From Candidatus Hydrogenedentota bacterium (lineage in GTDB: Bacteria > Hydrogenedentota > Hydrogenedentia > Hydrogenedentales > JAEUWI01): a stretch of 64,000 nt of DNA. Position 1 is the first letter of the stretch. The number at the start of each line of letters is the position of its first letter. Both the position numbers and the translations under genes were made by a program. The stretch spans positions 1-64,000 of the forward strand of contig JAHBVV010000032.1 in NCBI GenBank assembly GCA_019637335.1. Direction: 5' to 3'. Below, in pieces: positions 496 through 17,188 of this stretch. The notes beneath the pieces were generated by a model. It searched no databases. It saw nothing but the letters and a program-made list of their open reading frames with translations, and had not been told where the DNA came from.

Positions 496-1416
496 TTACA
501 CCCAGCCTTTTCCGGCCGTCCACATCTTGTTGAAGTCACCGGGGTGCGCGGCAGCGAAGAGGGGCAGGGAGAGGAATTCGATCAGTTCCCGGTGTACGGC
601 CACAAAGTCATTCTCGCGATTGTCCGGCAGGCCTGCGCGCTGGAGAAACGCGGCCCAGAGGTCGCGTTTGTCCGTTCGTTTTGGGAAGGTTTCCCACAGG
701 CACGCGGGTATTTCTTTTGGGAGGTCTGTTTTCCGACGCTCGAAGGTCGCGTGTATGGCCTGGCACAGGGTGGGACCGTCGAAGTCAAATTCGCGTGCGA
801 GCACACACAGGTCGTAGAAGTCCTTCATTCGGGTATTGAGCACGTCAAGAGAAACCATCGCCTGAAGCTTCTCGGCTATCACGGTTTCACGCGGGTAAAC
901 GCGGATGTATGGCGCGGGCAAGGAGGAAAGGAGCGCCGTATATTCCGCCTGCTGAGGTTCGGGGGTGATGGCGTCGCCGAATCCAATGTCTATCTGCAAT
1001 GGGATGCGGGCGTTTTGAAGATGGGCCACGAGTCTGATGCGCTGACCGTTGTACTCGTGCTCGACACGAATCTCCTCGACATGGATGGACTGTTCATCGA
1101 AGATCAGACCGTCCGGAATCACCTCCATGCGGCAGATGTCGCGGATGACTTTTCCGAGTGCTTCGGGGGATGGCTCGCCAAAGCCCAGCAAGTCGAGATC
1201 GCGTGTAGGGCGGTGCGGTTTATGGGACCAGAGCGCAAAGAGCCGCGCTCCCTTGAGGACGAAAAGCTCCGCGTGTTTCGATTGGCTCAGGCGGTAGAGG
1301 AAGCGTTCCGTGGCGAAGGCCGCAAGGAGCAGATTGAAGTCCGAGCCGTCGGGCCTTGCCAGATTGCGGAGACGTTCGCGAATGGAGGCGGGCATGTTCT
1401 TTGGCGGCGGGGTCAT
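496..1416 (-). CDS. abiEii: AbiEii-type nucleotidyltransferase toxin
   Basis: 306-residue toxin of a type IV AbiE toxin-antitoxin or abortive infection pair. Family members are nucleotidyltransferase-fold enzymes; several transfer nucleotides to tRNA and stop growth. Visible family motifs are LKGA near residue 55, RPTRDLDLLGF with the D-x-D metal-binding pair near 70-78, IDIGFGD near 142, and AEKL...RMKDFYDL near 181-203. I choose the ATG at 1416 over an upstream one at 1461 because it overlaps the antitoxin stop as ATGA, the usual translationally coupled arrangement, and the residues before it are not family-like. No frameshift or missing motif is seen, so it should be active. Confidence 0.88.
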   Translation of the reverse strand: MTPPPKNMPASIRERLRNLARPDGSDFNLLLAAFATERFLYRLSQSKHAELFVLKGARLFALWSHKPHRPTRDLDLLGFGEPSPEALGKVIRDICRMEVIPDGLIFDEQSIHVEEIRVEHEYNGQRIRLVAHLQNARIPLQIDIGFGDAITPEPQQAEYTALLSSLPAPYIRVYPRETVIAEKLQAMVSLDVLNTRMKDFYDLCVLAREFDFDGPTLCQAIHATFERRKTDLPKEIPACLWETFPKRTDKRDLWAAFLQRAGLPDNRENDFVAVHRELIEFLSLPLFAAAHPGDFNKMWTAGKGWV

Positions 1417-2021
1417 TGAAGCATCTCGATATAGGGCTGTACGACCTTGGTAACTCGGCAAATGACGGCATATTTCACGAGTTCCGGCACGGTCGCCTTT
1501 TTTTGCGCCATGGCATCCCGCAGGGCTTCCACCGCCACGTCGCGTCCGATTCTGCGCCGATGGCGGAAGCAGTCGATCACGGTGCGGGCGGGGCTGGTGA
1601 TACGAACGGGGACACCATCAACCAGGTGTTCCTCGATGCCTTCGGTGAGGGCTTTCCCGGAAAAGCGAACCACCTCAAAGGACAGTTCGGGGATGTGGGG
1701 GCGTCTGGCCTTGGGGTGCAGCGCGATCCAGATTGTGGCCGGCAGTTGGGTCGTAAGTTCATGGAACCGGAGCGCGGAAAGCAGGCAGATGATCGCGCCC
1801 GTCGTCCGTTTCGTGATAAGCGCGAAGTCGTGGTTTTCCGTTGGCGACGTTTCCGGATGAGCATAGAGTCCGCGTCCAACGCGGACCAGCCGTCCGGAGC
1901 GATACAGGACGGCAAGTACATGCCGCGGTATCCCGTGCTTTTCCAGATCGCGGGGGCGCAGAATTCCCTGCTCTTTGGCGAGGGCAAGTACCCGGTCCGA
2001 TGGTGAAATCATTTCGCCCAT
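1413..2021 (-). CDS. abiEi: AbiEi-type antitoxin and autoregulator
   Basis: 202 residues. The N-terminal part (about 1-75: RVLALAKEQGILRPRDLEKHG, then VLAVLYRSGRLVRVGRGLY) is the winged-helix domain of AbiEi antitoxins. The rest (IWIALHPKARRPHIPELSFE; PVRITSPARTVIDCFRHRR) is the characteristic C-terminal antitoxin domain with the SPARTVIDCF motif. AbiEi proteins neutralise AbiEii without stable binding in known cases and repress their own promoter. The gene is first in the pair and its stop overlaps the abiEii start by 4 bp. Another ATG at 2012 is possible. No palindrome like those of the DUF6088 loci is seen just upstream, so this locus probably uses a different operator. Confidence 0.87.
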   Translation of the reverse strand: MGEMISPSDRVLALAKEQGILRPRDLEKHGIPRHVLAVLYRSGRLVRVGRGLYAHPETSPTENHDFALITKRTTGAIICLLSALRFHELTTQLPATIWIALHPKARRPHIPELSFEVVRFSGKALTEGIEEHLVDGVPVRITSPARTVIDCFRHRRRIGRDVAVEALRDAMAQKKATVPELVKYAVICRVTKVVQPYIEMLQ

Positions 2022-2433
2022 TGTTTCATTTCGTCGTTAATGGCCACTAAGTATCCGACGTTTTGTAACACATTCTCGACGTGTAATGCAAAAGAGCAGA
2101 TCAAGGCCGTGTCCTTCCTGAGCCATGATCGGCTGCAAGTAAGAAGGGGTGGTGGTTTGGGGTACTGGGCATAGTGCGACTCCAAAACTTCGACCGGAGG
2201 CCTCGCATGCCCGCCACTTCACCGTTTCTTGCCCGAATCCCGCCGAGAATTTTCCCTATTCAATGCGCCGCCGCCTTGGTATATTGAGGCGCGCGGACCC
2301 TTCGGGGTCTGCCATAGCCAATGCGCTCAACGGCGTGGCGGCATCATTCAAGTGGGCTGGCGACCCGGCAAACCCGATCCAGCCAATCGGGCTAAGGGGG
2401 CGGACTTCATCACCCGCCATAGCCAGACCCGTA
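2022..2433. other. Non-coding stretch upstream of abiEi, no gene seen
   Basis: About 410 bp without a convincing gene on either strand. Its left end must hold the leftward abiEi promoter. A GTGCGAC string near 2174 resembles the 5' end consensus of group II introns and lies upstream of the domain V-like element. The distance, about 260 nt, is too short for a normal domain I, so I do not call an intron start. Confidence 0.4.
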
Positions 2434-2494
2434 GAGCCGGATGCGTGGAGACGCGCTTGTCCGGTTCGATGGAGGCTTGCCGGCGTAATCCTCC
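2434..2494 (+). ncRNA. Group II intron domain V/VI-like remnant
   Basis: A 34-nt element (2434-2467) begins GAGCCGGA and ends TCCGGTTC. These pair over 8 bp, carry the AGC triad at positions 2-4 as in group II intron domain V, and enclose a UGCGU/ACGCG upper stem. Total length is the canonical 34 nt. A 3-nt linker follows, then a GGAGG/CCTCC hairpin (2471-2494) with unpaired A residues on its 3' side, as expected of J5/6 and domain VI. Deviations are the GGAG loop instead of GNRA and a larger bulge. No reverse transcriptase lies upstream, so this is a degenerate 3' fragment or a convergent look-alike. Confidence 0.5.
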
Positions 2495-2651
2495 TGGCCC
2501 GTCCCCCTGCGGGGCGCGCGAGGAGAGTAATCCCGGCATTCTATCCAATAGCGATTGCCTTGAAGCAGGGCGACGCGGACACGCCTCGGTGGAGCGCATG
2601 CGCGCCATGCGTTCCATCGGGGCGGTGTTGGTCCAAGCCGGTGCGCGGCGT

Positions 2652-2669
2652 ACTTCGGACGTCCGAAGT
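2652..2669. repeat. Dispersed palindrome, copy 2
   Basis: Perfect 18-bp palindrome ACTTCGGACGTCCGAAGT, extended by flanking GCGGCG and CGCCGC arms, so the whole could form a hairpin or cruciform of about 15 bp per arm. It marks the boundary between the domain V-like remnant and the long hairpin block that begins near 2690. Confidence 0.65.
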
Positions 2670-2689
2670 TGCGCCGCAAATCCGCCCAG

Positions 2690-3811
2690 GGGGTTCGTGA
2701 CTACAGGGCGCAAGCCCCAGGTTCGTTCAACCTGCGCTGGCGTGGGGAGCGCCCGTCCTGGCGACAGGCGGGCTCGGGTCTTTGAAAGGGCCCGGCGACC
2801 GGCGAGAAAAAGCCGGCGGCGAATAGCTCAACCATGAGAGGGGCGAAAGCCCTTGCCAGTAAGAATCGCGCGAGACGGCGCCGAACCGCGAAAGGCTGTG
2901 ACCGGCGGGTAAGGGGGAGCTTCTTACTTCTGCCCCCTGAAATCGCCTCCTTGCATGCAATGCACGGGGCGGAAACTGCAACGGGACGGGAGTCCCGCTG
3001 TACGGTCATTGGCTCCGGGGGATAACACCCCCTAGCAACGTGACGCGTGATTTGTGGATCAATACTAACGCGGGAACCGCTGAGGCGGCCGGGGTGATGC
3101 CCGGCGCCTGGCCCTTTCAGCCAGGTAATTGAAATGCCTCAGTGGGGGAGTGGGGTCCGAGTAGAAGTCGAAGGTTTCGAGGGTGCGGGCGGCAAGGCAG
3201 TCGCACGCGCCCTGGTGTGTTTCCGGGTGGCGCCGAAGCACGTACGCCACGACGAAAGGACCGACGGGTTTTTACCCACTTGATTGATGCCCGGGGGACG
3301 GTCAGCCATTGCCTGGCCGTCCCCCATTGCCCCTGGCGGGGACACGACCGGCCGCGCCGCTTTCATCGGGAGATGGATCGGGCGCGGTGTGTGCATCGGA
3401 GTGCCGCGGCAATGCGGGAAAGGAGGTTATGCAACGAGAGGATTTGAGTGCGCAACGGGTATGAATTGGGCACGGGGAACTTACGGAAGTAAGTGCGCCG
3501 TGCCGGATGAGCGGACGCCGGGGCATTCCGCACTTGCGGGAAGCGCGCCGGATGCCGGGCGCGAGACGCGGGTTTATCGGGCATTTGCCCTTTCCCGCGG
3601 ATCGTGCTAAGAAACCCCGCGAGGCGCTCGTGTCGCGGGTTCTGTCTGATGGCTGTAACGCATATCGAGACCGCGGTACGGGCGCTTCTGCAACTTGGCC
3701 GTTTGGCCATGGCGGAAGCGTGCGCCGTATAGGATGAACCAGAGGCTTTGCGGGATTGTGCCTTCACCAAACAATCCCGCCCCATTCAACGGGGAAATCG
3801 AGCGAGGGAAC
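2690..3811 (+). ncRNA. Hairpin-rich 1.1-kb leader, candidate large structured RNA
   Basis: No coding sequence is convincing here, but hairpins are dense. Clear examples are AGGTT/AACCT around 2720-2735, GGGGGACGG/CCGTCCCCC (3293-3325), GGCACGG/CCGTGCC enclosing a second ACTTAC/GTAAGT stem (3469-3504), CCCGCGA/TCGCGGG (3616-3639) and GCGGGATTG/CAATCCCGC (3750-3780). GNRA-like GAAA segments occur between stems. The last hairpin ends about 30 bp before the ATG of the 224-residue gene, on the same strand. This could be one long structured RNA, a long leader, or decayed mobile-element DNA. Transcription is not shown by sequence, and I could not match it to a known large RNA class. Confidence 0.4.
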
Positions 3812-4486
3812 ATGAATTATCGCGGCGTGGCCACCAGCCTTGCTGGCTTTGTCCAACAGGTGGCCACGGCGTATCTTCCGCACGGCTACTGGTTCTACAG
3901 CCAGGGCTGCATACCGGCGGGGAAGCGCCCGGAGGCTATCGACGCCAAACTGATCGCGAAGTATGGCGCGGCCCTGTCCAAATGGCAGCGCGCGCGGCGG
4001 AAGCGGGCCGGTCTGGCCAACGTCCAGTACATACGGCTGGGGCGCATCTTCCTGGTTATGGCCACGAAGGGCGCGCATCCGTTCTTCCAGGAGGAGGCCG
4101 CGTCCATCCGCGACGCCCGCACGGTTCCGATCCGCGTTGGCGGCTATTCCATCAGCGTGCGGAAAGGGCCGGACGGACGGCTGCACAGCCACGTGCGAAT
4201 TGATCGCGCGCCCTACGCCGAGCTGATGGCGCGCTACCTGGAGCGCTGCAACCGCCTGTCCACCGCGCGGCTCGCCAGCGAGCTGTACCATCTGCCCTAT
4301 GAACCCTACGCCCCGGTGCGGCGGCAATACCTCATCCTGTTGCGGCGGATAAACGCGGTCCGCAAGGCGCATGGCCGGCCGGCCGTCCCCGTGGAGGCGC
4401 TGCCCCTGCGCAGGCGGATCATCCGGCCCTTTGAGCCGGACAACCGGGCGTGGGAGTCTACGCCGCTTCCGGATGCAGCGCCATGA
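3812..4486 (+). CDS. Unrecognised basic protein downstream of the hairpin block
   Basis: 224 residues, start ATG at 3812 preceded by GAGGGAAC. I do not recognise the family. The protein is rich in Arg, Lys and Tyr: segments such as KWQRARRKRAG (about 55-65), YSISVRKGPDGRLHSHVRID (about 110-130), YEPYAPVRRQYLILLRRINAVRK and RRRIIRPFEP near the end suggest nucleic-acid binding. No membrane segment, signal peptide or nuclease motif is evident. Its position directly after a 1.1-kb hairpin block on the same strand suggests an RNA- or DNA-binding partner of that element (inference). Its last 29 bp overlap the 3' end of the convergent ArdC-like gene, so the two coding ends share DNA. Confidence 0.65.
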   Translation: MNYRGVATSLAGFVQQVATAYLPHGYWFYSQGCIPAGKRPEAIDAKLIAKYGAALSKWQRARRKRAGLANVQYIRLGRIFLVMATKGAHPFFQEEAASIRDARTVPIRVGGYSISVRKGPDGRLHSHVRIDRAPYAELMARYLERCNRLSTARLASELYHLPYEPYAPVRRQYLILLRRINAVRKAHGRPAVPVEALPLRRRIIRPFEPDNRAWESTPLPDAAP

Positions 4487-5508: not shown

Positions 5509-8500
5509 TCAATCAAGCGTTAACCCGTCGGAAACGCCTTCCAAAATCGTCTGAATATTGGCCCGCGCAGGTTCGGTGACCGGATTATCAACACCAACCT
5601 CGATGGTGACTTGAATTTCCAATCCAGCCCCAGCTGCAGCTTTCTTAATTTCGCCGATATTATCGGCCAGATCCTGGATTTGGTCGGTGCTAAGTTTCGC
5701 GGACGCGCGGAGGACCCCGGGACGAACGGGTGGTGGCGCAGATACTGAAGCGACTGTGGGAATGGTGCCCGTGACGGCCTGTAACTTTACGCTACTGGCT
5801 GCCGCAATGTCACAGGGCCAGGGGCCACTGTCCTCGGTGCGCTCCAGGTAGTGGCCGTGAATAGCGCTGTCGATGGCATCCCGCACGAGGGGCCAGGGCT
5901 GTGGTTGTCCCGCGCGGCCGGAGCACGCGTTCAACAAGGCAATCGCGGTGGTGGCATTCTGTTCCCACGCATCCGGAAGGGCCTCGTGCAGAATGTCCGT
6001 CACGGGAATGGGAGAAGGCGGGCCGTGTAATTCGGCGCTGTCATTCAGGACACCCGCCGGGACGCTTTCTTTCCAGATGCTCGCCTGCCCCGCGATGAGC
6101 CATATGCTGCCCGTCTGTACAGCAGACTTGATGCCTTCCGCCACCGCGTCCGGCGAGGCGCTGGGCACGGACAGGGGCTCCTCGAAGGCGCCCCGCGACA
6201 CCTGAACCACCGTGCCGCCTCCGAAATAGGCCTTGACCGCACTGACTGTGAGCACACCAGAGTCAGGCCAGAGCTGCGGAAGAGTCTTCGGCGTGAGCAA
6301 TTCCCCAGGGATGGCGGCGAGCTTGGCGTTCTCCGGCAACACCAGCTCGAGGCTGGGATCCTTCATGTCCGTATCCGTCGGCCGCTGCATCCACCAGGTC
6401 CGGAGCGATCCATCGGGCCGCCGCGCCCGCAACACGAAACTGCCCTGTTCCGCACCGCGCGCAAGCGTACCCAGGATTTCCTGGTGCCGAAGCATTTTCG
6501 GCAGGTGGGGAAACTGCGCGAAGGCCCCCGCGAGGTCCTTCACCCGGCGTTCGGTTTCCCCGCCGCGCCACAAATCGAAAGGCCCACCCGGAAGCAGGGC
6601 ATCCGCCTCGATGGCGGTATCCTGAATGCGGGATCGCTTGTCATTCTTGATGGTTTGGAAGAGCGGCTCGCTCTCGACGGCGATTTTAAAAGCGTGGATC
6701 TCACCTTTTTCGTTCACCGACACAACCACGCAATAGGCCTGCTTGATCGCCTCGGGGATCCGGCTCTTGGCATCGCCCAGATAGCCCGCGAGGCGCGTCG
6801 ACCGAAGCACGTCCAGATCCTGCCCCTTGAGCAACTGATGCACCTCGTCCCACGCGAGATAATCCCGCACGGCGCTCCGGGCCGCGTCCAGGGCTGCCTT
6901 CTCCGGCACCGCCAGCACCACCGCATTCCGGCATACCCGCGGCCGGTTCGGTGCTGTGGTGTCGTTGATGAAGCGCTGCGACTCCGCACTGGGATTGCCC
7001 GACGTGGACACCGCCCTGGGGCTCAATATGGCGAAGTGGAAATCGCCATCGTCCTCGATGTCACTCGGCTTGGTGGGCAACGTGTGTACCCGCGCCCCGG
7101 CGGCGCTCGCGCCCTGGGTCAGGGTCTTGGTGTCGCCGATAAATTTGACCAGCACATCCTCCACCGCGCCATCGGAGACCCGGTTCTGCGCGGCGTCACT
7201 GTGCATCTGCTTCAAGTTGGGCTTCCCGCCCAGGCGCCACGATTTCGGCAGCATCTTCTGCCCGCCGGGCGCCGTCTCCGCGTCCTCGATGCATTCCTCA
7301 TCCAGAAACCACGAAACCTCGGTCCAGCGCCGCAGGGCCTTCTCCAGCTCGATCTTGTCGGGACGCGTCGGTCCCAGCAGCACCATCAGATCCCGCGCCA
7401 GGGCCTTGCTTCCCTTGGGCTGGGAATGGAGGAAGGTCGCGATGACCGCCTGCTCCATCTCACGGTGGTTCAGGGCCGTCGATTCGTGTTCCAACGCCGC
7501 CGCCTTCTCCAGTTCGCCCAACAGAATCTTGTCCCATTCCTCGCGCTTGCCCTCATACTCCTCCGTGGTGGCCACGGAAGACAGCTCGCGCAGCGCCTCC
7601 GACAGGTCCGACTGGCCAGGAGGGGAGAGGAACACGTTACAGCCCACCAGGGGCGACTGATCCCACTTGGCCGCATCGCGCAGGCCCAGGGCAAAGGTCC
7701 GCAGCACGCCGCGCGTCCGCTGGAAGCGCTGCATGCTGGTCCACTTGGTGTACAGCACCTCCGTCACGTCCGGGTGGAAGGGATAGCTCTTCTCGAAGCG
7801 CTCCTCGGCGCTGTTGGCCTCGCGCTTGGTCTGCTCGTCCAGGTCGTAGACGCCCTTGAGCGCCGCCAGCACGTGCTGCTTGAAGGCACCCGATTGCTGG
7901 ATGGATTTCGGCGTGAAAAAGCGGCGGCGCAGCACCTCGGCCACGTCCTGCTTCTCCACCGGCTGCACGCTCTCTTCCTGCTCCCGGCGGAACAGATCGG
8001 AGAGATTGCCCACGATCTTCTGGCCCGTCGAATCCATTTTCCGGGGGTCCGTCGCGAGCAGGGAGGCCACCACCGCGCAATGCTTCACCTTCGTCGCCGC
8101 CTGGGTCAGCGCCTGGAAAAAGCTCTCCAGATAGCCTTCATAGGCTTTCTTGACGTTGATCTTGTCCCGCGCATACATCAAGACCTCATCAATGAGTATG
8201 AGTGTCGAAAGCCCGTCTTTTTGCGGCATGGACAGGAGTTCCACCAGCAACGGCTCATACGGTGCGCTCTCGCGCTCCTTGTCCTTGCCCTCGCCGTGGA
8301 GCAGTTTCAGGCCCGCGCTCCCGGCAATCTGCCACGCCAGTACGCTCCACGGCTCCTTCAGCCAGCGCAGCTTGCCCGAAGGATCCCCAATCTCCATGCC
8401 CTTCTCGATGTCCAGCTTGTCGAAAGGCAACACCACCACCCGCGTCTTCGGCGGATTCAATCCGTCCAGGTGCGACCGGAACTCCTGCACCGAGGACAAA

Positions 8501-8832
8501 TCCCCCGGCAGGTGCTCGGGATCCGCCACCAGGTGGTACAGCGTGATCAGCGTGTGCGTCTTCCCGCCGCCATAGGTCAGTTCGAGCTGGCGCACCGCCT
8601 TCTCGTTCTTCCCCGCCAGGCGATAGACCACATCCTTCACCAGTTCCCGCAGGTTGCGCGTGGGGTAGGTCAGCGCGAAGAACTCACGCGGATCCTGATA
8701 CACCGTCCGCGCCCGGCCGAGCTTCACCTCGTAAAGATCGGCGGCAAAGCTGTTCAGGGCCAGATCGCCGGCCTTCACGTCGTCCCGCAGCGTCACCACT
8801 TCGTGCCACGGGGTCCAGGGGGTTTTAGGCAT
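5509..8832 (-). CDS. DUF499 P-loop ATPase of a DISARM-related defence operon
   Basis: 1107 residues. DUF499 proteins are large ATPases of unknown biochemical role that recur next to DUF1156 methyltransferases and SNF2 helicases in defence islands. The Walker A motif TYGGGKTHTLITLYHL lies near residue 85 and a Walker B-like LILIDEVLMYARD near 200. The N-terminal WHEVVTLRDDVKAGDLALNS and FALTYPTRNLRELVKDV segments are typical of the family. The start at 8832 is taken because family-like sequence begins there and it overlaps the upstream PIN-like gene stop by 8 bp. The longer frame to 8955 reads Arg/Trp-rich sequence within the upstream gene. It is the last gene of the operon. Confidence 0.88.
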   Translation of the reverse strand: MPKTPWTPWHEVVTLRDDVKAGDLALNSFAADLYEVKLGRARTVYQDPREFFALTYPTRNLRELVKDVVYRLAGKNEKAVRQLELTYGGGKTHTLITLYHLVADPEHLPGDLSSVQEFRSHLDGLNPPKTRVVVLPFDKLDIEKGMEIGDPSGKLRWLKEPWSVLAWQIAGSAGLKLLHGEGKDKERESAPYEPLLVELLSMPQKDGLSTLILIDEVLMYARDKINVKKAYEGYLESFFQALTQAATKVKHCAVVASLLATDPRKMDSTGQKIVGNLSDLFRREQEESVQPVEKQDVAEVLRRRFFTPKSIQQSGAFKQHVLAALKGVYDLDEQTKREANSAEERFEKSYPFHPDVTEVLYTKWTSMQRFQRTRGVLRTFALGLRDAAKWDQSPLVGCNVFLSPPGQSDLSEALRELSSVATTEEYEGKREEWDKILLGELEKAAALEHESTALNHREMEQAVIATFLHSQPKGSKALARDLMVLLGPTRPDKIELEKALRRWTEVSWFLDEECIEDAETAPGGQKMLPKSWRLGGKPNLKQMHSDAAQNRVSDGAVEDVLVKFIGDTKTLTQGASAAGARVHTLPTKPSDIEDDGDFHFAILSPRAVSTSGNPSAESQRFINDTTAPNRPRVCRNAVVLAVPEKAALDAARSAVRDYLAWDEVHQLLKGQDLDVLRSTRLAGYLGDAKSRIPEAIKQAYCVVVSVNEKGEIHAFKIAVESEPLFQTIKNDKRSRIQDTAIEADALLPGGPFDLWRGGETERRVKDLAGAFAQFPHLPKMLRHQEILGTLARGAEQGSFVLRARRPDGSLRTWWMQRPTDTDMKDPSLELVLPENAKLAAIPGELLTPKTLPQLWPDSGVLTVSAVKAYFGGGTVVQVSRGAFEEPLSVPSASPDAVAEGIKSAVQTGSIWLIAGQASIWKESVPAGVLNDSAELHGPPSPIPVTDILHEALPDAWEQNATTAIALLNACSGRAGQPQPWPLVRDAIDSAIHGHYLERTEDSGPWPCDIAAASSVKLQAVTGTIPTVASVSAPPPVRPGVLRASAKLSTDQIQDLADNIGEIKKAAAGAGLEIQVTIEVGVDNPVTEPARANIQTILEGVSDGLTLD

Positions 8833-9205
8833 TGTCCGCTCTCTCTTCCTTTTGCCGCAGGGGCACCATGCGTACGCGGCGATCTTCGACCACCGTGAAA
8901 TGCCCCGCGAAATCCTCCCGGCTCGACAACGCAGCCACCGCCACGCGCGCCACATGCTCCGGCGAAGCCATCGAAATCCGAAACAATATTACGCCACACG
9001 CGGCGGGGAGCCGGTGGCGAAAAGCCAGTTCACCAAAATCCTTGTCAAAAGTCACCACGATCCGGCCCTCCCGCTGCGCGCGTTCGAGCACGGCGGGATC
9101 CGCCGCGCCCGGCATGTCGCGCCGGACCCACACCATGTCGTGGCCCGCCGCCGCAAGCGCCTCCACAGCCGCCAGGGGAAAGTTCTCGTTCGCCAGCACA
9201 CGCAC
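8825..9205 (-). CDS. DUF5615 PIN-like toxin
   Basis: 126 residues. MRVLANENFPLAAVEALAAAGHD at the start, then the invariant-looking VTFDKDFGELAF and GVILFRI segments, identify a DUF5615 PIN-like protein. These are predicted toxin ribonucleases; the conserved Asp residues sit in DKDFGEL (about 55-60) and the early N-E-N segment. GTG start at 9205, 3 bp after the DUF433 stop, so the two form the usual antitoxin-toxin pair. It lies between the methyltransferase and the ATPase of the defence operon and overlaps the latter by 8 bp, so it is transcribed with it. A role as a guard that kills the cell if the operon is damaged is possible but inferred. Confidence 0.8.
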   Translation of the reverse strand: MRVLANENFPLAAVEALAAAGHDMVWVRRDMPGAADPAVLERAQREGRIVVTFDKDFGELAFRHRLPAACGVILFRISMASPEHVARVAVAALSSREDFAGHFTVVEDRRVRMVPLRQKEERADNA

Positions 9206-9208
9206 GCG

Positions 9209-9439
9209 TCAGATGCTCAACGGGTACACCCGCTCCGCGTGCAGCAGCTCGCTGGCGTACTGCAGGCACGCCCGCACATCCTCGGGCGTGAGGCCGGGAT
9301 AATTCTCCAGCACCTCGTCCTCGCGCCAGCCCTGCGCCAGGAGCTCGACGATGAACTCCACCGCCAGCCGCGTTCCGCGAATGACAGGCTTGCCGCACAA
9401 GACCTCCCCGTCCGTGACAATTCGCTCGTGCCAATCCAT
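9209..9439 (-). CDS. DUF433 antitoxin
   Basis: 76 residues. The core GEVLCGKPVIRGTRLAVEFI, then ELLAQGWREDEVLENYPGLT, is the DUF433 signature, a small MerR-like HTH antitoxin normally paired with a DUF5615 toxin, which follows here after 3 bp. The ATG at 9439 has CAGGAGA 8 nt upstream; the open frame continues to 9520 but without family sequence. Likely autoregulatory DNA binder and inhibitor of the neighbouring PIN-like protein. Confidence 0.82.
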   Translation of the reverse strand: MDWHERIVTDGEVLCGKPVIRGTRLAVEFIVELLAQGWREDEVLENYPGLTPEDVRACLQYASELLHAERVYPLSI

Positions 9440-9563
9440 GGTTGGTTCTCCTGTAAATCCAATGTGATTCGGCGGCTTTGATCCACGCCTTCTACACCTT
9501 CCAGTGAAAGGTATTTTCAACGCGCAATGCGGCGCAGGCCGGATTGCCTGGAATACATCTCTT

Positions 9564-9591
9564 ATTCGTGTGAATTCGTGTCCATTCGTGG
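9564..9591. repeat. Intergenic three-fold ATTCGTG motif
   Basis: In the 204-bp gap between the DUF1156 stop and the DUF433 start, the string ATTCGTG occurs three times in 28 bp, spaced about 10 bp apart. From memory, very similar strings are scattered between genes in several environmental phyla; I cannot check this here. No other feature is seen in the gap. Confidence 0.4.
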
Positions 9592-9643
9592 TCTAACTTC
9601 ACGCACATTGTGGCGCTCGACCAGCCGCCGGACAGGGCGCCGG

Positions 9644-12600
9644 TCACATTGTATCTCCACCCGAGTCCATCGCCATTTGCCTGTCCTCATGCCGCTCGCC
9701 TCGGGCGCGGACGTGGTTGCTGATGCTTTCCAGTAGCGACCTTTCCTGGCTGCCGCGTTCGGCGAGTTCTATTATGGCCTGGAGGAGTTGCTGGAAGAGT
9801 TTATTATTGCGCAACGCGCGCTCGTCGAGGTATTCGTTGACCGTGGCCACGTCGCCGGCTTTCCAGAGGTGCATGAGGCGGTGGGTCTGATCGATCAGGG
9901 GCACGGGCTTGCCGTTGGGCGCCTGGAGGCCCATGTTCTTCTTGATGCGCCTGTTCCAGGGCACGAGCTTGGCCTTGCCGCCGGAACTGACGCCGTCGTC
10001 GCCGGGCGCGTCGTCTTCCCCGGCGGATTCCTCGTCCGCGGTTGCGGCGCCGTCGATCAGGCCGCCTTTCGTGGGCGCGCTGTCCTTGGTCTGCAAAATG
10101 CCGTACTGATCCGCCAGCGCCTTGTCCGACAGCCCGCAGGACAGTGCATACATGATGCACGCGCCGCTCGGGGCCTCGCCCATCCCGAAATCGTTCCGGT
10201 GGAGCAGGTAATAGATGGTCACGTCGTCCAGGCCCGTCACCGTCACCTCCTCCTCGCCGTGCGAGAGGATGCGGCCCACCGCGAAGTCCACCACCATGCG
10301 CCGGACGTGCTGGAGAAACTCGGACACGCTCATGACCGCGCCGGGCTCGTCCGCCTTGCGCACCACGGGGTGCTTGGAATAGGCCTCCAGCGCCGGGCCC
10401 GTCGCCGCCCACACAAAGTCAGGGCCCCGAATGCCCGCGTCCCAGAAGTAGCGCAGCCGCTCCGTGATCCGCTCCCGCATCGCATCCAGCACCGGGCCGT
10501 CCCAGCCGGGGCGGGCGATGGCGGGGCGCTTCTTGCAGACGAGCCAGAGGGAGGAGGCGAGAGAAGCGCGATTTAAGTTACGAATTCCTCCAGGCATCTC
10601 GGTCGCAATCGGCCATGAACCCGTGACAGCAAAGCCCGCCCGAATGATTCCTGCCACCAGCGCTTCCCAAGCGTTGGGATTCTTATTTGCGAACACAACT
10701 ACGAGTCTTCCATTTGGATGCATTTTCTCACAGGCCGACGAGAATGAGCGGTACATGCCGTCTTCGTAAGTCTGCTTTGAAAGTGCAGCATTTTTCTCGT
10801 GGCGACTTGAATCGTCTATAAGTTCGCCGTCACCAGTGCTTGAATTCCACTTCGGTCCAAGAGCTTCACGGGTTGCCTTGTCAAACTCAGGGCTCAATCC
10901 GTAAATGGCTCGCCGTATCCAAATGTAGAAAAAGTCCATTAGGTCCGAGTAGGGAATGGCATCATAGTATGGCGGATCAGTGAAAACGATGTCGTTATCG
11001 AATTCGATGCCAGTAATCGCGGATGCGTTTAGGGCATGTGGAGCTACCGTTGAACTCCAATCTGTTTGAAAGAAACGAGCGAGTACGCGATACGCTGAAT
11101 TGATACCACCATTGTAAAAGCGCTCGATAGGTGAAAGGGGATTCCCTTCAGCATGATCCCATGTAATTGGCAAGGCCCATCTCATGAATACATGCTTAAC
11201 TTCTTCTGCGCCATTTTCCCATATACAAAGGTTGGCCATGTAGTCAGCGGTGCGGCTGAAGACACAAGTTAGAAGAGCTGTTACTGCTTCTTGCCACAGT
11301 GGCGGAAATCCTGTCTTTTCCATCGCCTTTGGGCAAGTACGTGTGAGCCTGATCAATACTCCCAACGTAAGAAGTTGCCTATGGACAAATAGTTTGTGCC
11401 ATTGGTCGAACCCGTAAAGCGGAACACGGAACCCAAGCGCTTCCTTTCCAGGAAGTGGCTCGGTTGGCAGCCCGAAGGGAATGTCCTTGTAAACATCTTC
11501 CAGGCACGACTCTGCCTCCTCCGCTTTCGCGATCTCGTCACGTATCGGCAATCGATACTCTTTGCAGGTCGGCCCTTCGACAACGACCGCAGTCATCATG
11601 GCCCCCAGCCGTCCTGACTTACCTTCGACTCGGATATCTTCCATAGTCATCATGGCTGGGCAGCACGGGCATTGCGCACCGGAGCGAGACATCGTGCCTC
11701 CGCCGAGTTTCTTATCGAGGGCGCGCTTTTGGGCGGCGTTGCCACCCTGTTGCGGGACATTGTCTCGTACCCGAAACACGACGCCCGACTTGTCGGCGTT
11801 CGGTTCCATCTCCAGCACGACGCGCTTCTTGTCCTTCTTGCAGAGCCAGCGCGTCTTGAGCAGGGGGACGATGGCGCGGCAGTTCTTGCACTTGACCGTG
11901 CGCGCCCAGAGGTAGGCGACGGTGGGCTTGGCCACCCAGCGCGGGTTCTGGGGGTGCTTGAGGTAGTCCTCGCCATAGTCCACGTTGAGCGTGTGGATGT
12001 CGGCGTTGCCGTCGGGATCGAGGGGGACGAGGCGGGGCGGGCGCGCCTCGAAGGCGACGCCGCCATCCACCAGGGGCTGGTAGTCGGCGTAGGTGGGGTA
12101 GAACTCGGCCAGTTCCTTGCGCGCTTCCTTCAAGACCCAGAGGCCCCAGGCGCGGACGTGCCAGGCGAGGTCGGCGTCGGGCGGGGGGAGGAGCTCCATC
12201 TGGTATTCCCGGAGCTTCGCCGCCACCTTCGATTTCGTCGCCTTCTTGCCGCCCGTACCCTTGAAATAGGCCTCCATGAACTCCGGGTCGTTCGCGGCGA
12301 AATCGGGTAGGGGGAGCTTCTGGCCCGCCAGCTTCTGGGGGTATTCCAGCGTACACTTGAGGATGAACCACGCCACGGGGTTGATGTCGATGGCCGTGGC
12401 CTCGCAGCCCAGGCGCATGGCCTCCAGCGGGATGGCCCCGCCCCCGGCGAAGGGGTCCAGCACGCGCGGCGCGCGTCCGCCATAGGCCTTGCGGATCTCC
12501 TCCCGGAAATAGTCCAGATCCGGACCCGACTCCCGGCCCCAATGGAGGATGCCGCCCTCCGTCTCCTCCTTGATGCTGCCATCCTTCTGCACCGTCTGCA

Positions 12601-12838
12601 CCACCGTACCCGCCAGGCGCTCCAACAGCTTCTGGCGCGCCTCCTCATTGCCGGGATCCGGCAGCAACGTGGCGATCAGCGCCGCCCGGCACGCCGCCAA
12701 AGGACGCCGCGCCGGCCAGATATGCAGCGTAGAGATATGCCCGTGCCGCACGTTCTTCTCGTGCACCGAGTCAATGGACGTCTGTTTAAGCGGAAAAGCC
12801 ACCTCAATAAGGCGCGGGGGATCGGGATTAGTATCCAT
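9644..12838 (-). CDS. DUF1156 DNA (adenine/cytosine-N4) methyltransferase
   Basis: 1064 residues. The N-terminus IEVAFPLKQTSIDSVHEKN, then HGHISTLHIWPARRPLAACR, is the DUF1156 domain. An AdoMet-binding motif LDPFAGGGAIPLEAMRLGC lies near residue 135-155, and the catalytic DPPY motif (IVFTDPPYYDAIPYSDLMDF) near residue 620-640, so this is an amino-methyltransferase of exocyclic nitrogens. A Cys-rich segment in the middle (CKNCRAIVPLLKTRWLCKK; CPCCPAMM) suggests a zinc-binding insert. In DISARM-related operons such enzymes probably mark self DNA. ATG at 12838, 62 bp after the deaminase gene stop; second-last functional block before DUF499. Confidence 0.9.
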   Translation of the reverse strand: MDTNPDPPRLIEVAFPLKQTSIDSVHEKNVRHGHISTLHIWPARRPLAACRAALIATLLPDPGNEEARQKLLERLAGTVVQTVQKDGSIKEETEGGILHWGRESGPDLDYFREEIRKAYGGRAPRVLDPFAGGGAIPLEAMRLGCEATAIDINPVAWFILKCTLEYPQKLAGQKLPLPDFAANDPEFMEAYFKGTGGKKATKSKVAAKLREYQMELLPPPDADLAWHVRAWGLWVLKEARKELAEFYPTYADYQPLVDGGVAFEARPPRLVPLDPDGNADIHTLNVDYGEDYLKHPQNPRWVAKPTVAYLWARTVKCKNCRAIVPLLKTRWLCKKDKKRVVLEMEPNADKSGVVFRVRDNVPQQGGNAAQKRALDKKLGGGTMSRSGAQCPCCPAMMTMEDIRVEGKSGRLGAMMTAVVVEGPTCKEYRLPIRDEIAKAEEAESCLEDVYKDIPFGLPTEPLPGKEALGFRVPLYGFDQWHKLFVHRQLLTLGVLIRLTRTCPKAMEKTGFPPLWQEAVTALLTCVFSRTADYMANLCIWENGAEEVKHVFMRWALPITWDHAEGNPLSPIERFYNGGINSAYRVLARFFQTDWSSTVAPHALNASAITGIEFDNDIVFTDPPYYDAIPYSDLMDFFYIWIRRAIYGLSPEFDKATREALGPKWNSSTGDGELIDDSSRHEKNAALSKQTYEDGMYRSFSSACEKMHPNGRLVVVFANKNPNAWEALVAGIIRAGFAVTGSWPIATEMPGGIRNLNRASLASSLWLVCKKRPAIARPGWDGPVLDAMRERITERLRYFWDAGIRGPDFVWAATGPALEAYSKHPVVRKADEPGAVMSVSEFLQHVRRMVVDFAVGRILSHGEEEVTVTGLDDVTIYYLLHRNDFGMGEAPSGACIMYALSCGLSDKALADQYGILQTKDSAPTKGGLIDGAATADEESAGEDDAPGDDGVSSGGKAKLVPWNRRIKKNMGLQAPNGKPVPLIDQTHRLMHLWKAGDVATVNEYLDERALRNNKLFQQLLQAIIELAERGSQERSLLESISNHVRARGERHEDRQMAMDSGGDTM

Positions 12839-12900
12839 TTCTTACTCCACCGATACTACCCAATAGAATCGTCAGCGGGTGTTGCACTGGGTGAAATCTG

Positions 12901-14958
12901 CTACTGCTCATCGAAGAGTGCTCTTTTCCATTCTTTCCAGCCTTTGTATTCAGTATTCAGTTTGGTGAAGTGGTTCATATAAGCGCTAAGTTCGTCACTC
13001 TTACCGATGGAATTCTCCAATCGACTCAGCAAATCTGTTAGCTGGTAAGAGGCTGCAACCTCCTTATCCAAGTAGGATCCAGGAAAAAGCTGAACCCTAA
13101 GACGTTGTTTGGAATGATCCCACTTAAAGGAAGTTCCGCTGTGATCGGTTTCTGGCTCTAGCAGGATATTGCCTGCATCATCTTTGCGCTCGATCTCAAA
13201 TCCTCTGCTTAACTGCATCGAGAAGAAATCAAAAAAGCGCCTGGGCCCCACGCCAAAAAACGGCTCAAATCGGACGTGTGTGTTTTCGCCCAACTGATCG
13301 CCGACGACTTGAGCAAGGGAGTCCGGATGAAAATGTGCGGCTTTGCTCTTGGGATAGGGCTCAACGTATACCACCCGCTCAATGCCAGCGGCGATAATGT
13401 GTTTTGCACAGTTGTGACAGGGAAATGTTGTGCAATACAAGTGCGCTCCTCGGGTCGAAATGTTATTACGTGCACAGGATAGAAGGGCCTCCATTTCGGC
13501 ATGAACGACGCGGCCATACTCGGTGATATCACCAATTAGAGAACGTTTGACCACATCTGCCAAGTCGTCTTTGTCGATAGGAGGAGATTTCTGTTGCTCG
13601 CCGTCTTGATTTGCGATGAGCTTATTCAGGACACGATTTACAATGTCATCAACGATCTTGTCCTTCTCCTTCTTATTCGAGTCACACTCTAACGTGCAAT
13701 CTCGTCCGCCTGGCTGATCTCTGATCTCATGGGACTTCGAATCGTACTCCGGCCAGTAGAGCCCCCCTCCGAACTTTGGGCAATCATTCGCTCCAGTTGA
13801 AAGTATTTCCCTTCCCTTGGCTGCGACCGCCCCGACCTGTCGCGATAAATCAGCAGATCGGAGCGCGGCAGAGAACGCCATGAACATAGCGTATTCGTCG
13901 AATGTTGGAGTGACATATGGATGACCAAAAACCAAGTCGAGAACTCGCCAGATGCCGTGTGTCATCCGGTCGTTGTTCTCATCAATGTATAGGAAAAAAT
14001 CAGCAAGATGAAATGTCTTACTTGTCTGCTGGCCATGCTTGAGGTGTTCATCAGCGTCACGCTTTATGAGCTTTTCCGCATCGTTCTGATGGAGACCCTT
14101 ATTCTTTGTGAGGTACTTGATTCGACGCTTTTCATCGGCAAATACGCCAAGGAGGTAAAAACCGTCTCCATAAATATCGCGGAGACAGGAGACTTCTTCT
14201 GGATGCTTCAAAGAGCGAACGATGTACGCAGCTCGGTTACGTGGCGCGGTATCCGAAACCTCTTTTTGACGCCGCAGGGCGATTTCAGCAGCTACCCCGA
14301 GTGCGAGGATCCCGTTGTATCCGGATTTTTCTCTCGCTTCGTCTCCTGCTGTCATTAGTCTATCTATACGGTCAAATTCATTTGTCCCAAAGTCGGGAAA
14401 TTGTGAAATCTTCATTATCACGTCGCGTGATACCGAAATTGTGTCGGGAAAGTACCCAAAACTTTGTAGGCGCTCCTTGAGTACGTTACAGACATTCTCC
14501 AACTCAGTGCCCACAGCGCCAACCAACCCAATTACAATTTCTGAGTTTCGAAAGCGACGACCGATGGCCGTTTCGCGATTAATCGACGCAGATGACAACG
14601 CCGTGGTATCAAAATCATCTGGACGAGTCTCTACCGGCTCGGTACCGATAGGCGTTGATATTGTCTCCCACGGCGGCGGGTTGTCATCACCAACGACAGG
14701 CCCTGGCTGTCCTTGCGAAGAACTCGGGTCGCTCTCAGTGTCAAGTATCGCTCGTACTTCGTCCTCAAGGGCTTTTGGTCCGCTGCCTCGACCCTGAAAC
14801 ATGATTGTTCCTGTACTTGGATACCAATTCATGATTCCGCCGTTAGAGTGACGAAACTGTTTTTGATTGTCGCCGATGTCCAACCATGTCCCTTGGGCCT
14901 CCAAGTGACCTAATGCGGCCCTTAGCGCCTCGTAGTCTTCGATAAAACGGAGTGTCAT
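12901..14958 (-). CDS. avcD: AvcD-like anti-phage dCTP/dCMP deaminase
   Basis: 685 residues. A P-loop-like kinase domain begins near residue 140 (EIVIGLVGAVGTELENVCNV) and a cytidine-deaminase domain follows, with zinc ligands in VHAEMEALL (about 486) and TTFPCHNCAKHII (about 513). This two-domain order is that of AvcD enzymes, which drain the dCTP pool during phage infection. An extra N-terminal segment of about 130 residues, with NGGIMNWYPSTGTIMFQG near 40-60 and a low-complexity linker, lies in front. ATG at 14958 with GGAG about 9 nt upstream. Base composition is less GC-rich than the flanking operon genes, and its position between helicase and methyltransferase genes suggests an acquired cargo gene. 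No antitoxin RNA-sized gap is available upstream. Confidence 0.82.
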   Translation of the reverse strand: MTLRFIEDYEALRAALGHLEAQGTWLDIGDNQKQFRHSNGGIMNWYPSTGTIMFQGRGSGPKALEDEVRAILDTESDPSSSQGQPGPVVGDDNPPPWETISTPIGTEPVETRPDDFDTTALSSASINRETAIGRRFRNSEIVIGLVGAVGTELENVCNVLKERLQSFGYFPDTISVSRDVIMKISQFPDFGTNEFDRIDRLMTAGDEAREKSGYNGILALGVAAEIALRRQKEVSDTAPRNRAAYIVRSLKHPEEVSCLRDIYGDGFYLLGVFADEKRRIKYLTKNKGLHQNDAEKLIKRDADEHLKHGQQTSKTFHLADFFLYIDENNDRMTHGIWRVLDLVFGHPYVTPTFDEYAMFMAFSAALRSADLSRQVGAVAAKGREILSTGANDCPKFGGGLYWPEYDSKSHEIRDQPGGRDCTLECDSNKKEKDKIVDDIVNRVLNKLIANQDGEQQKSPPIDKDDLADVVKRSLIGDITEYGRVVHAEMEALLSCARNNISTRGAHLYCTTFPCHNCAKHIIAAGIERVVYVEPYPKSKAAHFHPDSLAQVVGDQLGENTHVRFEPFFGVGPRRFFDFFSMQLSRGFEIERKDDAGNILLEPETDHSGTSFKWDHSKQRLRVQLFPGSYLDKEVAASYQLTDLLSRLENSIGKSDELSAYMNHFTKLNTEYKGWKEWKRALFDEQ

Positions 14959-14990
14959 AGTTCCAACTCCAGGATTCTCCTTAACACTTC

Positions 14991-15101
14991 ATTCCCCTTC
15001 CGCCGCGGCCTGAATCTGGCCCGCGTTGATGACCACGCCGCCCCCCTTGGCGACCAGCTTCTGAAACGGGTTCTGGACCCGGATCAGGCGGGGGTGGGCC
15101 G
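14991..15101. repeat. 111-bp direct repeat, left copy (SNF2 gene 3' end)
   Basis: Matches 17191-17301 at 108 of 111 positions, offset exactly 2200 bp. It corresponds to the last 36 or so codons and stop of the SNF2 helicase gene, here detached from the rest of that gene. The copies share the ending QAAAEGE and its stop. Sequence on both sides of the repeat is unrelated between copies. Confidence 0.9.
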
Positions 15102-15125
15102 AAACACTCATGTATTCGGAAGCAA

Positions 15126-17180
15126 TCATCGGAGTTTCATCTCCTGCAGGTAGGGGGAGAGGGTGGTGCTTTCTCCGAGCATGGATTTGTGCGAGACGAT
15201 ATAGAGGCGCTCTCGAGGCCGTGTAACGGCGACGTAGAACAGTCGGCGTTCCTGTTCGAGTTCTGCCGGTGTCTTGGCCAGCCTGCTCGGCCAAATCCCG
15301 TCAATGGCATCGAGCACGACAACCGTATGGTATTCCTTGCCTTTGGCTCGGAGGGCGGTCATGAGGTGGATGGAGCGCAGTTCATCCATGTCCCGCTGTT
15401 CTTCTCCTTCGGGCACGGGCTGGGCCTTAAGATGAGAGATGGCATCTTCGAGATCGTCCAGAAAGGCGTCGTAGTCGTCACTATAGCGCTGGGCGTAGTC
15501 GGCCAGGTGGAGGAAGGGGGGATCGACGTAGAAGATGTCTTCCAGGGACATAGCCTTTCCATAGTCTTTAGAAAAGCCGTCAAACTCCTCACCGAGGACA
15601 TTGAGCGTGTCTGCGACGGTCTTCGTGGCCAGCAGGCGATTGATGGGCCCGTAGAAGCGCTCGTTATCGATGTTCTTGAGCGAACCGGGGTAGGCCATAA
15701 GTGCCTCTATTGCCTCGTCGAAGCTCCGGGGCCTTTTCGTATGAAGGTGCGCGTTCAGTTCGGCGCGGTCCTTTTTATTCAGAGGATAGCGCTTGACCTT
15801 GTCAAGGAGGCCCACAAAGTCATTGACAACTTCGGGTGCCCTCCGGCGACGATCATCCCGGCGTGACACCATTAGAAGGATGTCGCGAAGGCTATCGAAG
15901 GATGCTTGAAGGAATATATTCAGGTCTTCCTTCGCAAAAAAGGGGATATCCGAGGCAGCAAGCAGAATCTGATAGGGAATAATCTGCCCGCGCTTACGTC
16001 CGAGAATGGCCAGTTTTTGACCATCATTCTGATTCATTTCTTTGGCCAGAGTCATCACAAACTCGCAGCTTTCCTGATAGGTCGCGAATTCCCTGACGGA
16101 GATATCTGCTTTGCGGGTGCTTTTTGCCTGGACTGTTTTCGGAATTCGAATCTCGTTGTGTTCGATCAATCGGGTCGCGTGGTTAACGATGTTTGAAGGG
16201 GAGCGGTAATTCTTTTCAAGGATGTGGGTCTCGAACTCGCCACCGAGAAACTTCTCGGGTTCCAGAATGAACTTTGGCACCGCGCCGCGCCACTCGAAGA
16301 TGGCTTGGTCGTCGTCTCCGGCAATGGTGAGGGTGCTCTTGTGAATTTGTACGAGGGTCCGGATTAGATTCATATCCAACGGGTCGACATCTTGAAATTC
16401 ATCGACAAGGATATGGTGAAAGCGTTGATTTGCGGCTACCGTAGTTGCCTCAAGCTTGAGCAATGCATGGTATTTCTGGTCGGCGAAGGTAAGCAGATTG
16501 GAACGGAGCAGGTGCTCGGTGGCCGTGGCCCAGAAATGGATGAAATCGTGCTGCTGGTGCTGCTCGTAGAGTTTCATCTTGTCGAGTCGAGATTGATATG
16601 CGTTTGCAAAATACCGATCCAGACCCACACTTTCGATCCACTTTGTGTTTTTCACAAAGTCTTTGATGAGATTCTTGCTCTGATGGCGGAATCCCAATCC
16701 CTTCAAGACGTCGAACACGTCCAGGATGTCGCCCTTCAGCGCGTTGAGCGCGTTGCCTGACGACAGGACTTGGGCCATGGTGGCATTCTCCGTCCAAAGA
16801 GGCCGCAACGTATGGTGAAAAATGCTATAGGCGTCTTTTCTGGAGACAAGTTTGAGGCCACTTTGCTGACTGCGGAGATGCCGATAGCCCAGTGCGTTCA
16901 GGGTATTCACCTGGACATGTGACGCGAGAAAAGCCAGATCCGGATCATTCTCTATTCGGTGCCGAATTTCATCTCTCGCGCCTCTGGTGAAGGTAACGAT
17001 GAGGAAGCGTTGAGGTTTCTTTGCATTGCGTTCCTGTATCGTCTTGCAGCGCCAAAGGAGAGACAGGGTTTTGCCGCTGCCGGCAGGCGCGAGCAGTCGA
17101 ATTCGTTCGGCCTTGCTTGCGCAGAAGCTTCGTTGCGACAGGTCAAGTTTCACGTCAGGCATGGGTTGCACCCTTTCCAT
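15126..17180 (-). CDS. UvrD/PcrA-like SF1A helicase
   Basis: 684 residues. Superfamily 1A motifs are in order: LLAPAGSGKTLSLLW (motif I, about 29-43), FTRGARDEI (Ia), HILVDEFQDVDPLD (II, about 275), IAGDDDQAIFEWRGA (III), EKNYRSPSNI (IV), MTALRAKGKEYHTVVVLD (V) and FYVAVTRPRERLYIVS (VI). The protein is close to UvrD/PcrA and to the stand-alone UvrD-like helicases of defence loci. ATG at 17180 with AGGAAAAAGT before it. The gene sits between two 111-bp copies of the upstream SNF2 gene's 3' end, which marks it as an insertion into the operon that left the SNF2 gene complete. All motifs look intact. Confidence 0.88.
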   Translation of the reverse strand: MERVQPMPDVKLDLSQRSFCASKAERIRLLAPAGSGKTLSLLWRCKTIQERNAKKPQRFLIVTFTRGARDEIRHRIENDPDLAFLASHVQVNTLNALGYRHLRSQQSGLKLVSRKDAYSIFHHTLRPLWTENATMAQVLSSGNALNALKGDILDVFDVLKGLGFRHQSKNLIKDFVKNTKWIESVGLDRYFANAYQSRLDKMKLYEQHQQHDFIHFWATATEHLLRSNLLTFADQKYHALLKLEATTVAANQRFHHILVDEFQDVDPLDMNLIRTLVQIHKSTLTIAGDDDQAIFEWRGAVPKFILEPEKFLGGEFETHILEKNYRSPSNIVNHATRLIEHNEIRIPKTVQAKSTRKADISVREFATYQESCEFVMTLAKEMNQNDGQKLAILGRKRGQIIPYQILLAASDIPFFAKEDLNIFLQASFDSLRDILLMVSRRDDRRRRAPEVVNDFVGLLDKVKRYPLNKKDRAELNAHLHTKRPRSFDEAIEALMAYPGSLKNIDNERFYGPINRLLATKTVADTLNVLGEEFDGFSKDYGKAMSLEDIFYVDPPFLHLADYAQRYSDDYDAFLDDLEDAISHLKAQPVPEGEEQRDMDELRSIHLMTALRAKGKEYHTVVVLDAIDGIWPSRLAKTPAELEQERRLFYVAVTRPRERLYIVSHKSMLGESTTLSPYLQEMKLR

Positions 17181-17188
17181 ACTTTTTC

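Follow-up and report, generated by a model that had tools for sequence, protein, structure and literature searches.

The window analysed here, 64,000 nucleotides of a contig from a Candidatus Hydrogenedentota bacterium, carries near its left end a structured RNA followed on the same strand by an open reading frame (ORF) for a 224-residue protein (Table 1). The protein is basic (17% K+R, 7% D+E), as the first-pass annotation of this DNA had described it, and its start codon lies 482 nt past the end of domain 3 (D3) of the RNA. The RNA is, with near certainty, a circularly permuted (CP) group II ribozyme. Ribozyme and gene are co-oriented and are probably co-transcribed.

The element sits between an AbiE pair and ArdC, beyond which lie Hma-like, DUF499, DUF1156, dCTP-deaminase and helicase genes. 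Positions 5509-20788 encode HmaC/DUF499, DUF5615, an HmaB/DUF1156 methylase, a dCTP deaminase, a UvrD helicase and an HmaA/DrmD-like SNF2 helicase with NOV_C; these genes belong to a defence island in which the CP RNA and its gene also lie. Further along, a 6544-aa open frame (24825-44459, minus strand) contains RHS repeats, PKD, peptidase C39 and InlB-type B repeats, and a match to a TraD/TrwB-type coupling protein (47884-50856, minus strand) hints at a conjugative contig or a plasmid.

Table 1. Coordinates of the CP RNA, the downstream gene and the neighbouring AbiE pair in the window
Feature	Position	Strand	Basis or remark
AbiEi/AbiEii pair	496-2021		upstream of element
Structured RNA (P1-P2-D5-D6-linker-D1-D2-D3)	about 2350-3330	+	3' boundary approximate
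P1/P2 region	2354-2430	+	RNAalifold, 15 loci
P1/P2 outer helix	2354-2361 with 2422-2430	+
P1 hairpin	2373-2391	+
P2 hairpin	2399-2418	+	loop CATCAC (2408-2413) pairs with D2 loop GTGATG (3094-3099)
Domain 5 with AGC triad, GAGCCGGATGCGTGGAGACGCGCTTGTCCGGTTC	2434-2467	+	RF00029, 47.7 bits; covariation
Domain 6, bulged branch-site A at 2543, CTATCCAAT	2468-2549	+	A5 alignment, pair counts
3' splice site	2549/2550	+	..AAT, then cut
Linker (permuted exons) AGCGATTGCCTTGAAGCA, 18 nt	2550-2567	+	between conserved splice-site motifs, 15 loci
IBS1 GAAGCA	2562-2567	+
5' splice site	2567/2568	+
Domain 1	2568-3080	+	motif scan including pTT8; alignments A7, A8
5' splice-site motif GGGCGACGCGGACAC	2568-2582	+	GGGCG start
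Conserved D1 stretch GAATAGCTCAACCATGA	2821-2837	+
EBS1 TACTTC	2925-2930	+	in D1
Domains 2-3 and joiner	3084-3330	+	alignment A8; 3' boundary approximate
D2 hairpin loop	3094-3099	+
Conserved GAGTGGGGTCCGAGTAGAAG	3148-3167	+	D2-D3 region
Conserved GACGAAAGGACCGACG	3251-3266	+	D2-D3 region
Terminal hairpin of D2-D3 region	3290-3330	+
H-type pseudoknot before ORF	3743-3780	+	in each of 18 loci with complete upstream sequence
Pseudoknot stem S1, AGGC with GCCT	3743-3746 with 3760-3763	+
Pseudoknot stem S2, GCGGGATTGT with ACAATCCCGC	3750-3759 with 3771-3780	+
acpG-like ORF, 224 aa	3812-4486	+	family A4; hhalign; AlphaFold; Foldseek

Ribozyme domains and their pairings

The domains follow one another in permuted order, D5-D6 first and D1-D2-D3 after, and the splice sites are reversed, with ..AAT after D6, then 18 nt, then GGGCG ahead of D1. 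RF00029 of Rfam matches D5-D6 (2432-2549, plus strand; 47.7 bits, E 2.8e-6), which overturns the earlier statement that no known large RNA is present; the gathering search matched D5-D6 alone and none of the CP group II families in Rfam 15. The first-pass annotation had also let the RNA start at 2690. That position falls within D1, the RNA begins about 340 nt earlier and, because D5-D6, the 18-nt linker and GGGCG (and with them both splice sites) all map upstream of 2690, the stretch 2690-3810 is D1 onward; D5-D6 is also the best-conserved portion of the RNA. A canonical mobile group II intron does not fit the locus, its order being permuted and no reverse transcriptase (RT) ORF lying near the element; nor does a retron, as the protein has no catalytic aspartates and the RNA shows CP group II features instead. 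The ribozyme belongs to a rare, scrambled class, from which the present copy would take its capacity to self-splice.

Folding supports the structured stretch reported earlier on the strand of the ORF: positions 2800-3799 have a minimum free energy of -489 kcal/mol against -439 +/- 6 in 20 dinucleotide shuffles (z = -8.1), and positions 2330-3329 likewise give z = -8.1. Since a MAFFT alignment of the whole upstream region was too gappy, anchor-based blocks were used, with anchors placed by hand in three loci (L007, L038 and L034). Among 28 named pairs of D5-D6 in 15 loci, 96% of cells are paired, a level reached in 0 of 500 shuffles; 24 of the 28 pairs are altered on both sides, and sliding the partner by one base lowers pairing to about 42%. 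This covariation count covers D5-D6, while D1-D3 are supported by alignment conservation, the EBS-IBS pairing and the P2-D2 pairing. EBS1 and IBS1 form five of six base pairs in the window and 83 of 102 over the loci together (shuffled mean 68.7; 0/10000). The P2-D2 loop-loop pseudoknot has 6 bp in the window and scores 67 against 55.9 when shuffled (14 loci; 0/2000); in L037 the same pairing reads CACTAC-GTAGTG. According to the accessible text of the paper that described the class, formerly T-large, CP circles are predicted at 15-86 nt, and the pseudoknots between P1 and the 3' end and between D3 and D1 are phylogenetically more restricted (Roth et al. 2021, PMC8637638). Linkers measure 12-48 nt in our 15 loci, with L008 (12) alone outside the published range.

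Two sequence elements of the region stand apart. The palindrome CTTCGGACGTCCGAAG (2653-2668) lies in a peripheral D1 stem; its exact copies occupy five sites, all on the 83.5-kb contig in a genome of 7.16 Mb. Variant forms lie at 421, 54060 and 63537, and the L001 contig has similar copies as well; this distribution suggests a replicon- or element-specific repeat. Between D3 and the pseudoknot ahead of the ORF, a second conserved element, TATGAATTGGG with a hairpin (window 3460-3510; L001 2490-2545; L033 140-190), is possibly D4.

Distribution and synteny

Relatives of the protein occur in loci of Hydrogenedentota, Planctomycetota and cyanobacterial plasmids, and a scan of IMG/VR returned none. 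The layout is constant in the three phyla, with acpG following a CP RNA of the same orientation. Eighteen loci were compared, namely every locus whose protein is full-length and whose upstream sequence reaches far enough; L033, which begins 558 nt ahead of the ORF and keeps the pre-ORF pseudoknot, and L035, a fragment, stand outside this set. The 18 share a series 5' of the ORF, consisting of the D5 hairpin, D6 with its bulged A, a short linker, GGGCGAC....ACAG, GAATAGCTCAAC.ATGA, an EBS-type hairpin, GAGTGTGG..C.AGTAGAA and GACGAAAGGACCGACG. The first-pass annotation had proposed an RNA-protein element. That proposal stands insofar as three phyla retain both RNA and protein in fixed order and strand, the upstream structure persists among the homologues and the RNA covaries far above background; its partner RNA, however, is of a known class. 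We infer that the association is also physical.

A covariance model of the D5-D6-5' splice site region (R1), built without published members, matches pPNAP05 (50 bits, E 9e-16) and Thermus plasmids including pTT8 (22-27 bits; pTT8, E 1.4e-5) at the expected places, and pTT8 of T. thermophilus has the same splice motif GGGCGAC....ACAG (GGGCGACCCGGACAG). In genome counts, R1 matches were taken at >=100 bits only, because those of 20-45 bits (two of which, in other genomes, were inspected) resemble the D5-D6 of canonical introns. At that level R1 finds four of 68 Hydrogenedentota genomes, exactly the four with the protein, and nine of 392 Planctomycetota genomes, eight of which are the eight with the protein; in the ninth, the contig stops about 360 nt after D6. 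Wherever these two phylum samples offer a strong CP RNA with enough contig, acpG follows (12/12).

Rearranged copies were also seen. In a Phycisphaerae genome (G070), two contigs (L003:1-140, and L034 on the minus strand) have an identical beginning: 140 nt from the 3' end of a canonical group II intron, fused to the 3' half of D5 of the CP RNA. Apparently, two CP copies each received a canonical intron in D5. A Calothrix plasmid (L009) has tandem CP RNA copies (1626-1762 and 3777-3904), with acpG after the second only.

Around the other AcpG loci, 192 PADLOC models were matched among 120 neighbourhood proteins and 25 among 100 control proteins (E<=1e-15), a comparison that counts families, not proteins, and is indicative only because the models are redundant. 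The matches include DrmA/B/C, DarG, type I S subunits and PD-T4-6, and DISARM-like genes adjoin L002.

AcpG and the pseudoknot ahead of its gene

AcpG is the one protein known to accompany such ribozymes, although its gene is divergent, convergent or absent in the published class, according to the accessible text (PMC8637638), and AcpG is therefore not strictly required by CP RNA. The ORF adjoining the CP RNA of pPNAP05 is not AcpG-like. BLASTP showed no similarity between the window protein and AcpG, so profiles were compared. The 19-member profile of its family (A4) aligns colinearly by hhalign with a set of six Thermus AcpG sequences (A3) over 168 columns, with a score of 52.6 and a probability of 92.7% (best of 100 column shuffles, 23.9). 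By this profile match, the 224-residue protein is a distant homologue of AcpG (TTHC007 family). Pfam, NCBIfam, PHROGs, PADLOC and PDB sequence searches with it gave no significant family, and Pfam specifically no RVT_1/GIIM match, in agreement with the earlier observation that neither an RT nor a transposase could be recognised. None of the 19 members has DD of the catalytic YxDD at the matching hairpin, where the YADD position reads YIRxGR.

The predicted fold of the window protein (AlphaFold; pLDDT 86.7, pTM 0.79) retrieved retron Eco8 RTs first in Foldseek (E 6e-4, probability 0.99), followed by the group II intron RT 6ar1 (0.93) and then by RdRps and AbiA, with TM <=0.38 on PDB and with GGDEF and Cse3 also matched. 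A second model, of the L002 protein, again placed Eco8 first, more weakly (best E 2.6e-3), and next a group II ribonucleoprotein chain, 8t2r_D (probability 0.57); it also matched spliceosome chains of 1945-2231 residues (6exn_A, 8qoz_A, 8r09_A and 8ro0_A), which we take to be Prp8. The predicted elements run in the order strand, two helices, hairpin, short helix, hairpin, three-helix bundle. This order reads as a short RT palm, a primer-grip hairpin and a three-helix thumb, without fingers or catalytic aspartates, and suggests that AcpG may be a degenerate intron-encoded protein (IEP).

In profile comparisons, A4 scored 30.6 with 16 ORFs of group II RT loci, a set in which L104 was taken in the wrong frame, whereas none of 100 shuffles exceeded 27.6. 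With a cleaner group II RT set it scored 23.1, a value reached by one of 200 shuffles. The first relaxed RT set had included non-RT ORFs, and the comparison was redone with clean sets. With mixed RTs and with retron RTs, A4 scored no higher than shuffles, and Thermus AcpG gave no signal with the RT profile. Because sequence support is weak, we regard RT descent as a lead with moderate support and not as membership; it may be over-read, given that the Foldseek similarity is modest and that palm/RRM-like folds are common.

The pre-ORF pseudoknot lies 30-70 nt from the acpG start codon across loci. The accessible main text of PMC8637638 does not mention it, and a simple pattern search found no match in pTT8 or pPNAP05. 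Its stem S2 is 96.5% paired in the 18 loci, against 70% when shuffled (0/5000), and S1 is weaker (89% against 78%; 2/5000). These counts come from a hand-curated table with shuffles, adopted because the MAFFT alignment A6 displaced the GGC. By analogy with ordinary introns, the pseudoknot is likely a control or binding site for AcpG.

Proposed mechanism, rival readings and known systems

In ordinary group II introns, DIVa is a control and binding site, and the pseudoknot would play this role at the acpG start. If the RNA behaves as its class does, the branch-site A2543 would attack the 5' splice site at 2567/2568, after which the linker would attack 2549/2550 with its liberated 3' end and leave as a predicted circle of 18 nt. 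A T-shaped RNA would remain, in which a 2'-5' bond links D5-D6 to the G that opens D1. Its 3' arm would be the AcpG message (D1-D3, pseudoknot and ORF), since acpG lies 3' of D1-D3 on the same strand, and the branched 5' end should block 5' decay of that message. The place of AcpG would be that of the D4 ORF in an ordinary group II intron opened within D4, and the protein would bind the permuted RNA as a maturase-like partner, aiding its folding. As the accessible text reports, the CP RNA class, including pTT8, has been tested in the laboratory and its back-splicing chemistry demonstrated, and in P. naphthalenivorans the processed RNA was not seen in vivo (PMC8637638).

We thus read the locus as a CP group II ribozyme with a distant AcpG, a degenerate IEP kept as a maturase-like RNA-binding partner, and put the probability of this joint reading at roughly two in three. 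A fuller scenario, to which we would give somewhat less than even odds, is that a dead, trimmed group II RT/maturase has been kept by the permuted intron as a counterpart of Prp8, with a branched, 5'-protected message, pseudoknot-controlled translation and a ribonucleoprotein that has a host function, possibly in defence. The same ribozyme and AcpG would also be accounted for if AcpG bound RNA or DNA but had no kinship with RTs, its palm/RRM-like (ferredoxin-like) core being a generic one that resembles theirs by convergence—a possibility that we take seriously while leaning against it. The low TM values and the presence of GGDEF and Cse3 among the matches suit such convergence, as do the retron-only and mixed RT profiles that stay within the shuffles and the empty Thermus comparison; yet the predicted elements follow the RT order of palm, primer grip and thumb, the top PDB matches of both models are RTs, and the gene position equals that of the IEP ORF. 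That CP RNA and AcpG form an anti-phage defence ribonucleoprotein of retron- or DRT-like layout, and not a decayed selfish intron, we consider unlikely: the AbiE pair on one side, the Hma/DUF499-DUF1156, dCTP-deaminase and helicase genes on the other and the PADLOC excess around other loci all point that way, but the excess compares family counts of redundant models, passengers also gather in defence islands, and AcpG has no PADLOC match.

Two readings of the RNA itself fare far worse. The 3' end of one canonical intron might have come to lie beside the 5' half of another and an unrelated ORF, with D5 canonical enough for RF00029 and canonical introns with RTs present in these genomes. Order, spacing and motifs nevertheless recur unchanged across three phyla (18 loci), P2-D2 and EBS-IBS covary, no RT lies nearby, and the published carriers are matched by the same model R1; the conserved permuted order refutes this chance juxtaposition, to which we assign a very small probability. 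A new, unrelated class of large structured RNA, which the confinement of the Rfam gathering match to D5-D6 and the failure to match any CP family might suggest, is scarcely credible and likewise refuted, every tested CP group II hallmark being present.

The ribozyme class and AcpG have already been published (PMC8637638). To our knowledge, the additions made here are a canonical-D5 lineage in phyla that the accessible text of that paper does not name (some loci may have been listed earlier), the invariant order and shared orientation of RNA and gene, the pseudoknot ahead of the ORF and a predicted fold of AcpG that resembles RTs. The lineage fixes the order ribozyme-pseudoknot-AcpG, with near-perfect co-occurrence in two phyla. 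If true, the dead-RT reading would be the first explanation of AcpG's identity, would explain how a permuted ribozyme retained its protein, and would offer a bacterial parallel to the relation between Prp8 and the spliceosome as well as a compact natural RNA-circle system plus cofactor.

Among known systems, the RNA resembles CP group II RNAs in its D5-D6-linker-D1-D2-D3 order, GGGCG and Y-U splice motifs, branch A, EBS1-IBS1 and P2-D2 loop pairings, lack of an RT ORF and nearby AcpG. It differs from the published members in a canonical-type D5 that scores in Rfam, whereas those of pTT8 and pPNAP05 do not, in an acpG that invariably follows the RNA in the same orientation and is preceded by a conserved pseudoknot, and in its hosts, which are Hydrogenedentota, Planctomycetota and Cyanobacteria instead of the Thermus, Firmicutes and Proteobacteria of the accessible text (PMC8637638). 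The protein shares with the TTHC007 family its colinear profile match and its place beside a CP RNA; unlike that family, it is shorter (195-278 aa; 224 here), shows no pairwise BLAST similarity and forms a separate branch.

Group II IEPs (RT/maturase) and Prp8 are approached in the predicted palm-thumb-like topology, the group II ribozyme partner and an ORF position that corresponds to D4. The RT-like domain of Prp8 has no catalytic aspartates, and AcpG likewise has none; unlike an IEP, AcpG lacks fingers and YxDD, and its sequence link is weak. The lariat-capping ribozyme GIR1, which is group I derived, forms a three-nucleotide lariat; the mRNA of its companion, a homing endonuclease ORF, carries a 5' end branched through a 2'-5' link. 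By analogy, the CP RNA would leave such an end on the acpG message, although the RNA here is group II and its companion is AcpG. With retrons and DRT systems, finally, the element has in common a protein of predicted RT fold (Eco8 RT being the top match) and a structured RNA in defence islands, but it is set apart by the missing catalytic aspartates, by the lack of an msr-msd and by an RNA that is a group II ribozyme.
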